From Actinopolymorpha cephalotaxi (GTDB lineage: Bacteria; Actinomycetota; Actinomycetes; Propionibacteriales; Actinopolymorphaceae), in the NCBI RefSeq assembly GCF_013408535.1, contig NZ_JACBZA010000001.1, positions 2,502,850 to 2,566,849 of the forward strand: a DNA stretch of 64,000 bases. Direction: 5' to 3'. Every line of letters starts with the position of its first letter. Positions within the stretch are counted from its first letter, which is position 1. The notes below the pieces were generated by a model, which had not been told where the DNA came from, did no database searches, and saw only the letters and a list, made by a program, of their open reading frames with translations. Positions 17,016 through 20,922 of this stretch are shown here, in pieces. Position numbers and translations under genes: made by a program.

Positions 17016-17777
17016 CTACCGGCGCAGCAGCATGACGATCGCGATCACTCCGACGGTGACGATCACGCCGCGCAGCAACGTCGGTGGAAGCCGGCGGCCG
17101 AGCCGGGCGCCGATCAGGCCGCCGAGGACCGAGCCCACGGCGATCAGGACGGCGGGCACCCAGGCCACGTGCGCGACCAGGATGAAGACGACGGCGGCGA
17201 CGGCGTTCGCGACGCAGGCAAGAACGTTCTTGGCGGCGTTCGCCCGCTGCAGCGCCTCGTCCAGCCCGATGCCGAGGACCGCCATCAGGATCACGCCCTG
17301 GGCGGCGCCGAAATAACCGCCGTAGACGCCGGTCAGGTAGACCAGCACCATCATCAGCCAGCTGCCGTGGTGCCGGTGCACGGGCTCGTTGCGGCGTTCG
17401 GCCAGCTTCCGCGACAGCCACGGCTGCAGGATGACCAGCGCGACGCCGAGGCCCACCAGAACCGGGACGATCATGTCGAACGCGCTCGACGGGAGCGTGA
17501 GCAGCAGGATCGCGCCGGTGATCGCGCCGAGCAGGGACATCGAGCCCAGCCGGATCAGCCGGGTGCGCTGCCCCCTGAGCTCGGCGCGGTAGCCCCAGGC
17601 GGCCGCGGCCGAGCCGGGGGCGAGCCCAATCGTGTTGGAGACGTTGGCGGTGACCGGCGGGATACCGAACGCGATCAGGGTCGGGAACGTGATCAGCGTT
17701 CCCGACCCGACGATGGCGTTGATCGTGCCGGCCGCCGCCCCCGCGAGGAAGACGGCGAGATATCCGAGTTCGCTCAC
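17016..17777 (-). CDS. TauE/SafE family membrane permease
   Basis: A 253-residue integral membrane protein with about eight hydrophobic helices. AGTINAIVGSGTLITFP in helix one and VYGGYFGAAQGV at the start of the second half are the repeated TauE signature regions. GTG 17777 overlaps the stop of the SPFH gene (GTGA), so it is the last gene of the nfeD-SPFH-tauE transcript. The family includes putative sulfite or sulfonate exporters; the substrate here cannot be assigned. Its pairing with SPFH/NfeD is unusual but the coupling is plain. Confidence 0.9.
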   Translation of the reverse strand: MSELGYLAVFLAGAAAGTINAIVGSGTLITFPTLIAFGIPPVTANVSNTIGLAPGSAAAAWGYRAELRGQRTRLIRLGSMSLLGAITGAILLLTLPSSAFDMIVPVLVGLGVALVILQPWLSRKLAERRNEPVHRHHGSWLMMVLVYLTGVYGGYFGAAQGVILMAVLGIGLDEALQRANAAKNVLACVANAVAAVVFILVAHVAWVPAVLIAVGSVLGGLIGARLGRRLPPTLLRGVIVTVGVIAIVMLLRR

Positions 17778-18937
17778 TCCGGCCGGGGCTCCTGCGCGGC
17801 CGGCTGCGCCGGTCCCGCCGAATCCCCGTTGGTCCCGGTCTCCTGCTGGTTGCGCCCGCCGCCCAGGCCGCCCTTGGCGGCGTCCTCGGCGGCGGCGATC
17901 GCCGCCTGCACCTCCGACTCCGCGTCCTGCAGGGCGCTGACGGTGGCCTCCTCGGCCTCGGCCGCCACGGCCGCATGAGGCTTGGGAGTGCGCCGGCGCG
18001 GGCGGTCGGCCGCACGCGGGGTGGACTCGCCCTCCTCGGCGAACTGGCCGACCATCGAGCCGATGCCCTCCAGCGCCTTGCCGATCTCGCTCGGGACGAT
18101 CCACAGCTTGTTGGCGTCGCCCTGGGCGATCTTCGGCAGCATCTGGAGGTACTGGTAGGACAGCAGGCTCTGGTCGGGCTCGCCGTCGTGGATCGCGTTG
18201 AAGACGGTCTCGATGGCCTGCGCCTCACCCTGGGCTCGCAGGATCTGCGCCTCCCGCTGGGCCTGGGCACGCAGGATCTGCGACTGCTTCTCGCCCTCCG
18301 CGGTGAGGATCGCCGACTGCTTCGCCCCCTCAGCGGTCAGGATGGCCGACTGGCGGGTGCCCTCCGCGGTGAGCACGGCGGCCCGCTTGTCGCGGTCGGC
18401 GCGCATCTGCTTCTCCATCGAGTCCTGGATGGAGGGCGGCGGGTCGATGCCCTTCAGCTCCACGCGGTTGACCCGGACACCCCACTTGCCGGTGGCCTCG
18501 TCCAGGACGCCGCGCAGCTCGGTGTTGATCTGCTCGCGGCTGGTCAGCGTGCGCTCGAGGTCCATGCCACCGACGATGTTGCGCAGAGTGGTCATGGTGA
18601 GCTGTTCGATCGCCTGGATGTAGTTGGCAATCTCGTAGGTCGCGCGCACCGCGTCGGTCACCTGGAAGTAGATCACCGTGTCGATGGACACGACGAGGTT
18701 GTCCTCGGTGATCACCGGCTGCGGCGGGAAGGACACCACCTGCTCACGCAGGTCGATGGTGTATCGCACCTTGTCGACGACCGGCACGATGATCGACAGG
18801 CCGGGATCCAGGGTGGAGGAGTATCGCCCTAGGCGTTCGACGATGCCGGCCCGCGCCTGCGGGATGATCTTGACCGACTTGTACAGGAAGAAGACGACAA
18901 CGAACGCAATAAATGCGAAGACGATCAAAGGTGCCAC
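17774..18937 (-). CDS. SPFH/Band 7 (stomatin-like) membrane protein
   Basis: 387 residues: an N-terminal transmembrane helix (about 4-19), the SPFH domain (22-190, with VKIIPQARAGIVERLGRYSS and the RNIVGGMDLERTLTSREQIN loop), then an alanine/glutamate-rich coiled coil with repeated ILTAEG-xx-QS units (about 195-235), then a low-complexity tail. GTG 18937 follows CGGAGCAGCC. It is paired with NfeD upstream, the standard bacterial stomatin/NfeD arrangement, and forms oligomers in membrane microdomains. A truncated paralogue lies about 530 bases away. Confidence 0.94.
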   Translation of the reverse strand: MAPLIVFAFIAFVVVFFLYKSVKIIPQARAGIVERLGRYSSTLDPGLSIIVPVVDKVRYTIDLREQVVSFPPQPVITEDNLVVSIDTVIYFQVTDAVRATYEIANYIQAIEQLTMTTLRNIVGGMDLERTLTSREQINTELRGVLDEATGKWGVRVNRVELKGIDPPPSIQDSMEKQMRADRDKRAAVLTAEGTRQSAILTAEGAKQSAILTAEGEKQSQILRAQAQREAQILRAQGEAQAIETVFNAIHDGEPDQSLLSYQYLQMLPKIAQGDANKLWIVPSEIGKALEGIGSMVGQFAEEGESTPRAADRPRRRTPKPHAAVAAEAEEATVSALQDAESEVQAAIAAAEDAAKGGLGGGRNQQETGTNGDSAGPAQPAAQEPRPE

Positions 18938-19398
18938 GGCTGCTCCGATTCATGGACGTACGCGGTGACGCCCTCGATCGTGAGAACGTCGACGGACTTG
19001 CCGGGTTCGATCGTCGAATGCTCGTCGTAGGGACGCGCAGTCCAGACCTCTCCCCCGATTCTGACTCTCCCACCATGGGGACTGACTTCCTCGACGACCA
19101 CGCCCGTCTTGCCCACCAGTGCGGATATACCCGTGCGGATGGACGGCGCCTCCTTCAGGTGCCGGAGCGCCACCGGGCGTACCGCCGCGAGCATTCCCAG
19201 CGCCACGACGATCGCGGCAACGATCGAGATGACCGGCCCACCGCCGACCAGGGCCGCCAGCGCACCGGCGGCCGCCCCCGCGGCCACCATCAAGAACACC
19301 AGGTCGAGCGTGAGCAGTTCGACCGCGGCCAGGGCCGCCGCGAGCACCGCCCATGCCACCCACAGGTGTTCGCTGATCCAGGCGAGCAGGTTGCCCAT
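18925..19398 (-). CDS. NfeD-like membrane protein
   Basis: A 157-residue NfeD protein of the short (NfeD1b) type: three hydrophobic helices (about 8-80) then an OB-fold domain (about 90-157, ALVGKTGVVVEEVSPHGGRV and a WTAR strand). It has no ClpP-like protease part, unlike long NfeD. ATG 19398 is used; TTG 19404 is an alternative. It overlaps the SPFH gene by 13 bases, so it is cotranscribed. NfeD binds and regulates stomatin-type proteins. Confidence 0.92.
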   Translation of the reverse strand: MGNLLAWISEHLWVAWAVLAAALAAVELLTLDLVFLMVAAGAAAGALAALVGGGPVISIVAAIVVALGMLAAVRPVALRHLKEAPSIRTGISALVGKTGVVVEEVSPHGGRVRIGGEVWTARPYDEHSTIEPGKSVDVLTIEGVTAYVHESEQPWHL

Positions 19399-19417
19399 GG
19401 TCAAAACCTATGCGATC

Positions 19418-19472
19418 ACGACCTTCTTCTGCGTACCGGCAGGTCACGAATTGTGGACAACCCGCAGATCAG
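19418..19472. repeat. Copy A of a duplicated promoter-side block
   Basis: This 55-base block upstream of nfeD matches 20086-20140 at 52 of 55 positions. It includes the core TTGTGGACAACCCGC on the plus strand. In both copies the block also contains the TGA stop of the gene preceding it on the minus strand, so the duplication breakpoint lies at that stop codon. The upstream copy lies before the truncated SPFH gene. Confidence 0.93.
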
Positions 19473-19963
19473 GCGATGTCCTTCAGCTCCACGCGGTGGA
19501 CCCGGACGCCGAACTTGCTGGTGGCCGCGTCCAATACCGTTCGCAGCCTGATGCTGATCTGCTCGCGGCCGGCCCGGGTCCGCTCGAGGTCCATGCCACC
19601 GACGATGGTGCGCAGGTGGTTCGTGGTGAGCTCCTCGATCGCCCGGGTGTAGTTGCCGATCTCGTAGATCGCGGACACGGGGTCGGTCACCTGGAAGGTG
19701 ATGACCGGGTCGATGGAGACGACGAGGTCGTCCTTGGTGACCACCCGCTGCGGCGGGAACGACACCACCTGCTCCCGCAGGTCGACGGTGTGCTGCACCT
19801 TGTCCACGAACGGCACGATGATCGACACGCCGGGCGGAAGGACGCGGGAGAACCTACCCAGTCGCATGACGATGCCTGCCCGCTCCGGCGGGACGATCTT
19901 CACCGACCTCGCCAGGACGAGGACGACGACCACAAGAATTGCGATGAGCATCGACGGTTCCAC
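19469..19963 (-). pseudogene. Truncated SPFH/Band 7 paralogue
   Basis: 164 residues from GTG 19963, closely resembling the first 165 residues of the full SPFH protein: a membrane helix, VKIVPPERAGIVMRLGRFS, the YEIGNYTRAIEELTTN region and TIVGGMDLERTRAGREQI. It stops at RVELKDIA, exactly where copy A of the duplicated promoter block begins, so the coiled-coil half is missing. Its upstream ribosome binding site is degraded (GGGG where the full copy has GGAG). The frame is intact and could still produce a membrane-anchored SPFH fragment, but I think it a relic. Confidence 0.8.
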
Positions 19964-20085
19964 GGTTGCCCCGATTCATGGACGGACGCGGTGACGCCCT
20001 CGCCACGGGGACCGGCGCCACGTATGCCACCCACAGGTGTTCGCTGATCCAGGCGAGCGGACTGCCATGATCAAACTAGGTGATC
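19964..20085 (-). pseudogene. nfeD relic with internal deletion
   Basis: Plus-strand bases 19961-20002 match 18935-18977 (end of the real nfeD), and about 20015-20070 match 19344-19398 (start of nfeD). The roughly 370 bases between are missing and a short stretch at about 20003-20014 joins them. The ATG region also has a one-base deletion (ATGGCAGTCC for ATGGGCAACCT), so the frame is shifted. It was the N-terminal neighbour of the truncated SPFH copy. Confidence 0.8.
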
Positions 20086-20140
20086 ACGGCCTTCTTCTGC
20101 GTACCGGCAGGTCACAAATTGTGGACAACCCGCGGATCAG
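20086..20140. repeat. Copy B of the duplicated promoter-side block
   Basis: Matches 19418-19472 at 52 of 55 positions. It overlaps the end of the ABC ATPase gene, whose TGA stop (20139-20137) lies inside it. Confidence 0.93.
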
Positions 20141-20922
20141 CGGTCCGCCCGTGCGGTCCAGCGGTCGTCGGAGCGGACGACCTTCAGCGGCAGCCCGAAG
20201 GTCTCCGACAGCGCCGGCGAGGTGAGGGTCTCCTCGATCGGGCCGGCCGCCACCACGCTGCCGCCGCGCAGCAGCAGGACGTGGGTGAAGCTCGGCGGGA
20301 TCTCCTCGACGTGGTGGGTGACCAGCACGGTGGCCGGGGCGAGGTCGTCCGCGGCGATCTCGTCGAGAGTGCGCACGAGCGCCTCCCGGCCGCCGAGGTC
20401 CAGGCCGGCGGCCGGCTCGTCCATCAGCAGCAGTTCGGGGTCGGTCATCAGCGCCCGGGCGATCTGCACCCGCTTGCGTTCGCCCTCGGAGAGGGTCCCG
20501 AAAGTGCGGTCGGCGTAGTCGCCCACGCCCAGCCAGGACAACAGCCGGCGGGCACGGTCGTGGTCGACGTCGTCGTAGGCCTCCCGCCAGCGGCCGAGCA
20601 CGGCGTAGGAGGCCGACACCACCACGTCGTCGACGCGTTCGTGCCGGGGAATCCGGTCCGCGATCGCCGCGCTCGTCAGGCCGATGCGGGGACGCAGCTC
20701 GAACACGTCGACCCGGCCGAGGGTCTCCCCGAGGATGGTCGCGGTGCCGCTGGTCGGGTGCATCCGGGCGGAGGCGATCTGCAGCAGGGTCGTCTTGCCG
20801 GCGCCGTTGGGGCCGAGCACCACCCACCGGTCGGCGTCCTCGACGGACCAGGTCACCGCGTCCAGCAGCTTGGTGCCGTTACGGGTGATCGTGACGTCGG
20901 TGAGCTCGAGTACAGACCCCAT
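20137..20922 (-). CDS. ABC transporter ATP-binding protein, stand-alone
   Basis: A 261-residue single nucleotide-binding domain. Walker A GPNGAGKTT at 37-45, signature LSEGE at 144-148, Walker B LLLMDEP at 164-170, H-loop His203. There is no membrane partner or binding protein nearby. The sequence resembles the COG1119 (ModF/YlmA-like) soluble ATPases, whose role is not established. ATG 20922 lies eight bases after a TAGGTT -10 box, so the mRNA is probably leaderless. It is divergent from the next gene. Confidence 0.9.
   Translation of the reverse strand: MGSVLELTDVTITRNGTKLLDAVTWSVEDADRWVVLGPNGAGKTTLLQIASARMHPTSGTATILGETLGRVDVFELRPRIGLTSAAIADRIPRHERVDDVVVSASYAVLGRWREAYDDVDHDRARRLLSWLGVGDYADRTFGTLSEGERKRVQIARALMTDPELLLMDEPAAGLDLGGREALVRTLDEIAADDLAPATVLVTHHVEEIPPSFTHVLLLRGGSVVAAGPIEETLTSPALSETFGLPLKVVRSDDRWTARADR

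Follow-up and report, generated by a model that had tools for sequence, protein, structure and literature searches.

The window that we analyzed, a stretch of 64,000 nucleotides from Actinopolymorpha cephalotaxi (G000:C1:2502850-2566849), carries a partial tandem duplication that is real, old, and common to two species, and that is decaying in an ordinary way; it runs from the end of an ABC transporter ATPase gene through nfeD and into an SPFH gene. The order on the minus strand is ABC ATPase, block B, nfeD remnant, SPFH-B, block A, nfeD, SPFH-A, and TauE permease (table 1), with the start codons of the ABC gene (ATG at 20922) and of the TauE/SafE permease gene being our own choices. The intact nfeD and SPFH-A frames are adjacent and co-directional with an overlap of 13 bp, and both families were matched in Pfam. 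The best PDB chain for SPFH-A was QmcA (8z5g, E 7.3e-68), with residues 3-290 of QmcA covered, and the gene is 387 codons long versus 164 in SPFH-B. For comparison, we used six congeners (G000-G005, where G000 is A. cephalotaxi) and two other genomes of the family (G006 and G007); nfeD was matched by tblastn in all eight family genomes compared.

Table 1. Features of the duplicated locus, in window positions, and the paired motif matches elsewhere in the A. cephalotaxi genome.
Feature	Position	Strand	Evidence and remarks
ABC transporter ATP-binding protein gene	20137..20922	-	Pfam ABC_tran, E 3.5e-27; upstream
Copy B of the ABC-nfeD intergenic block	20069..20140	-	68-nt repeat, 91%; found in G005 copy B too
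Copy-B nfeD remnant	19964..20068	-	52-nt and 87-nt repeats; three-frame translation; 18-codon NfeD match
SPFH-B, 164-codon fragment	19469..19963	-	Open frame; Pfam Band_7; same junction in G005
Copy A of the intergenic block	19405..19472	-	Repeat pairing; upstream of intact nfeD; block start is the duplication junction
Intact nfeD	18925..19404	-	Pfam NfeD, E 1.5e-14
SPFH-A, intact p-stomatin/QmcA-like SPFH gene	17774..18937	-	Pfam Band_7, E 1.7e-42
TauE/SafE permease gene	17016..17774	-	Pfam TauE, E 9.1e-41; downstream context
Inverted motif pairs (L049-L055)	G000:C1 near 60567, 159539, 895856, 3591244, 4136946, 5230669, 5640840		

Copy A (18445-19472) paired with copy B (19474-20140) as direct repeats of 300 nt (84%), 87 nt (82%), 68 nt (91%), and 52 nt (87%), a pairing far beyond chance. 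Within the SPFH part, the repeats are spaced 1,026-1,029 nt apart, and those covering the block and the beginning of nfeD 668-671 nt apart; this difference indicated that the original unit measured ~1,029 bp, of which copy B later lost ~360 bp. Counted from the ATG of nfeD to the GTG of SPFH, copy B was 356 bp net shorter, and three-frame translation placed the nfeD remnant out of frame; thus, the frameshift described in the initial annotation stood, whereas the loss, given there as about 370 bases, amounts to 356 bp. The promoter-side block (19418-19472 and 20086-20140) was indeed identical at 52 of 55 positions, and at 69 of 76 in a longer alignment, and the SPFH fragment of copy B does stay open as had been stated, over 164 aa from 19963 to 19469. 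Only one new junction was observed, at the boundary of SPFH-B and block A, where SPFH codon ~164 is joined to the end of the ABC gene. Here, SPFH sequence ending in GAC or GCC meets TGATCTGCGGG at the same base in both G000 and G005, and by our reading of the alignment at most about one base of homology is visible. The duplicated unit opens with the ABC stop codon (TGA at 20139-20137), and the TGA that closes SPFH-B (19471-19469) is the duplicated copy of this stop, fallen in frame. A TGA had been noted at both breakpoints; it does end both the ABC gene and the SPFH fragment, but because the new junction is single and the other TGA is simply where the parental ABC gene stops, the two codons reflect one duplicated codon rather than two breakpoint events. 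The homologous copies therefore lie head to tail with one new junction, and copy B is unable to encode complete products, both of which characterize a decayed partial tandem duplication.

Copy B was present in two of the six congeners, G000 and G005, and absent from G001-G004, G006, and G007, in which ABC-nfeD-SPFH-TauE is single copy. In G005, the nfeD span of copy B is 79 bp instead of 461, with deletion endpoints unlike those of G000, and the frame of SPFH-B is shifted by the loss of a single base near codon 150; the GTG start of SPFH-B is retained in both genomes. The comparison of copy number and reading-frame integrity that had been suggested for relatives thus found copy B in one of the five other congeners, frameshifted there. 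With the same junction, a frameshifted fragment, and other nfeD deletion endpoints in G005, and with the constraint on SPFH-B strongly relaxed (see below), the decayed tandem duplication proposed at the outset was borne out. An order-wide search of 391 genomes gave a match in 314, and among the best matches listed the open frames were at least 319 aa long, with copy B of G000 and G005 ranking below these. A contig scan returned 11 loci, two of them those of G002 and G003 and the remaining nine being 29-41% identical relatives from Pseudomonadota.

The flanks of G000, G003, G004, and G005 were 93-95% identical over 9,413 sites, and their tree does not resolve the branching (bootstrap 23 and 48); in a tree of the local genes (2,700 sites), G003 was the neighbor of G000 (support 88), and G005 joined next (69). 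The two SPFH-B copies grouped at 99% when all codon positions were used, and this pair was the neighbor of G005_A (71) and did not branch outside the four species; with third positions only, the B copies were not grouped (supports 36-56). In the coding part, 12 derived sites were common to the two B copies only, and none followed the cross pattern. The shared junction and shared derived sites indicated that the duplication predates the split of the A. cephalotaxi and G005 lineages; thus, as judged from the sequences, it is shared by both and old, and G003 and G004 either lost copy B or copy B has a more complex history.

Selection on SPFH-B was estimated with codon models on a fixed topology, in which four A copies and the B pair are joined at one node. 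The omega of SPFH-B was 0.37 versus 0.05-0.07 for the A background in an MG-style model, and 0.22 versus 0.025-0.036 in a GY-style model, which indicated relaxed selection; omega = 1 was rejected for the B branches together, with G000_A left free (2 delta lnL of 19.2 for MG-style and 39.4 for GY-style). Branch by branch, omega was 0.67 on the stem, not different from 1 (p 0.62), 0.39 for G000_B (p 0.006 vs. 1), and 0.22 for G005_B (p 0.006 vs. 1). In a placement test, that is, neutral placement keeping the observed types of change, the G000_B tip gave a milder picture than in the codon models, with 21 synonymous changes versus 17.6 expected (P 0.18), a neutral-looking count, and with changes spread as 23/25/23 over codon positions 1/2/3, but fewer residues had changed than the neutral mean (38 vs. 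48.2, P 0.001). The G005_B tip showed an excess of synonymous changes (16 vs. 8.9 expected, P 0.003) and of third-position changes (18 vs. 10.2 expected, P 0.0008), together with fewer changed residues (19 vs. 25.7, P 0.004). For reference, 14 and 13 synonymous changes were counted in the intact A copies of G003 and of G005, versus 4.8 and 4.4 expected. Of the residues invariant in the eight A copies, G000_B has changed 29 of 111, and G005_B 19 of 98. Two indels were counted in ~990 bp of SPFH-B versus five in ~330 bp of the remnants (P 0.013 for this post hoc count by hand). We concluded that SPFH-B evolves under strongly relaxed constraint that is not clearly neutral; the omega of a codon model may have been lowered by codon-usage bias, and likewise by gene conversion from copy A. 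None of the congeners examined had the fragment as a conserved, intact gene that is clearly under purifying selection, although weak residual constraint exists.

A separate observation concerns the intact SPFH-A gene, in which codons 2-60 (18758-18937, minus strand) are fast-changing in G000, with 31 changes (17 amino acids) versus 9 in the remaining 105 codons of the comparison; the omega of this branch was 0.32.

The intergenic block was analyzed over 78 columns. Two derived sites were common to A and B of G000 only and three to A and B of G005 only; three sites shared by the B copies only (one of them a gap) lay outside the within-genome shared sites, and one site followed the cross pattern. 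In the coding part, five sites in SPFH codons 7-23 were common to A and B of G000, and none to those of G005. These numbers are small, and they suggest short gene conversion tracts between the copies as the simplest account. Close to the nfeD ATG, by our reading, six of the eight family genomes have a TAGGTT element, from which the remaining two differ by one change; we take it to be the likely -10, as in leaderless actinobacterial promoters. At this element, the B blocks have lost two bases in G000 and one in G005. Scans of 19300-20250 gave no sigma-70 promoter match and no terminator. The name promoter block used in the initial annotation is a fair guess for what is a putative promoter. The block also holds TTGTCCACA (19452-19460 and 20120-20128, minus strand), which within the window occurs only in the two blocks (2 found vs. 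0.11 expected) and is preserved without change in each of the six copies of the block that the four close species carry. In Streptomyces coelicolor and Mycobacterium tuberculosis, TTGTCCACA is the high-affinity DnaA box according to a table in PMC4285127. Across the G000 genome it was found 58 times, versus 20 for a reversed control. In addition, 14 of these 58 matches form seven inverted pairs exactly 30 bp apart (table 1), and the stretches around them align as a dispersed repeat in two orientations.

Could the fragment be a gene in its own right? SPFH-B comprises a hydrophobic N-terminus and most of the SPFH domain; it matches Pfam Band_7 (E 7.9e-33) over profile positions 1-145 of 176 and QmcA over residues 4-162 of 305 only, and the C-terminal region that follows the SPFH domain is absent. 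Its AlphaFold2 model, made without an alignment, had a mean pLDDT of 51.6 and was too poor to use. A dominant-negative or membrane-anchor role had been proposed for this product and gained no support: an open frame is no evidence of function when neutral placement yields no stop codon with P 0.24 (G000_B; 0.50 for G005_B), and of the five other congeners four miss the fragment and one carries it frameshifted, so that it is not conserved intact. A dominant-negative product is conceivable, and nothing in our analysis backs the predicted role. If SPFH-B were a retained short gene, its membrane-anchored SPFH domain, lacking the part that comes after it in SPFH-A, would cap or poison SPFH-A assembly as a dominant-negative regulator; the open 164-codon frame with a single in-frame one-codon gap, the omega below 1 on both tips, and the GTG start kept in G000 and G005 agree with this. 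We nevertheless regard it as improbable, given the changes at A-invariant residues (29 of 111) and neutral-like codon positions in G000, the frameshift at ~codon 150 in G005, the absence from four of six congeners, and the fact that drift leaves the frame open in about a quarter of cases. It also seems very improbable that SPFH-B is a young truncated regulator, that is, a membrane-anchored SPFH domain with a borrowed stop that limits the assembly of the intact SPFH scaffold, kept here and lost by the relatives.

Another possibility is that copy B is kept for its block, as a second promoter and a second TTGTCCACA site before the operon with the SPFH fragment as a passenger. The higher identity of the G000 block repeat (91%, vs. 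84% for the 300-nt SPFH repeat) and the intact TTGTCCACA sites, confined to the blocks in the window, would fit; however, in G005 blocks A and B agree at 65 of 77 sites, and the coding part differs at 60 sites in 149 codons, so the block is no better kept there than the coding part, which argues against a block kept for its own sake. Moreover, the derived sites shared within each genome point to gene conversion, one or two bases of the TAGGTT element are missing from each B block, G003 and G004 manage without copy B, and the promoter scan had no sigma-70 match; we therefore consider retention for the block unlikely. Within-genome sharing of block parts and of the five SPFH sites in G000 would also fit two independent tandem duplications at the same place in G000 and G005, as would the failure of third positions alone to group the B copies. 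Yet the junction falls at the same base in both genomes, the B copies group at 99% on all positions, and they share 12 coding sites found in B only; independent duplications are scarcely credible and are largely refuted by the shared junction and shared derived sites.

Taken together, we hold it highly probable that copy B is a slowly decaying duplicate, accounted for by a shared tandem duplication, nfeD loss, and drift of SPFH-B. A segment of ~1,029 bp, from the ABC stop codon through nfeD to SPFH codon ~164, was duplicated in tandem before the split of G000 and G005, and with the ABC stop brought into frame by the junction, the upstream copy had no means of encoding the whole SPFH protein. 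Copy B then lost nfeD, with deletion endpoints differing between the two lineages, and its SPFH part drifts under strongly relaxed constraint, with a frameshift in G005. The single copy of G003 and G004 would most simply reflect loss through recombination between the repeats; short gene conversion probably keeps parts of the block alike within a genome, and it could also make copy B look less decayed than it is. Should the block serve as the promoter of the operon, transcription of copy B may persist and read into the intact operon. Against this overall reading, we counted the residual constraint, the rarer indels in SPFH-B, the third-position tree that does not group the B copies, the placement beside G005_A, the one cross-pattern site in the block, and the local trees that do not resolve the four species.

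Duplications, and tandem ones in particular, are described in PMC3857721 as often inherently unstable; according to this source, a duplicate is much likelier to end as a pseudogene than to take on a function, and gene conversion makes duplicates look younger. The locus resembles partial tandem duplications that end as pseudogenes in its head-to-tail copies, one of them incomplete, its relaxed constraint, deletions, and frameshift, and its absence in some close relatives; it differs in that the fragment frame is still open in G000 and the constraint is weak but not zero. The intact nfeD-SPFH-A pair has the SPFH-NfeD operon layout described in PMC2636767 for SPFH1 (p-stomatin) and NfeD operons, and we infer that SPFH-A belongs to subgroup SPFH1a. 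The same source reports that in 50 genomes SPFH1 genes have no identifiable NfeD1, and it suggests duplication followed by NfeD loss; copy B, in contrast to these operons, has neither a complete SPFH gene nor NfeD, and at this locus the suggested process also truncated the SPFH gene. None of the literature titles listed on NfeD/SPFH operons, on partial duplications that leave pseudogenes, on truncated SPFH forms, or on Actinopolymorpha genomes dealt with this locus. The locus is a clear worked case in which two species show one duplication event, each at its own stage of decay, and in which the regulatory blocks have probably undergone gene conversion. It further indicates that an open frame of 164 codons can outlast a duplication under weak selection, which is a warning against calling such frames genes.
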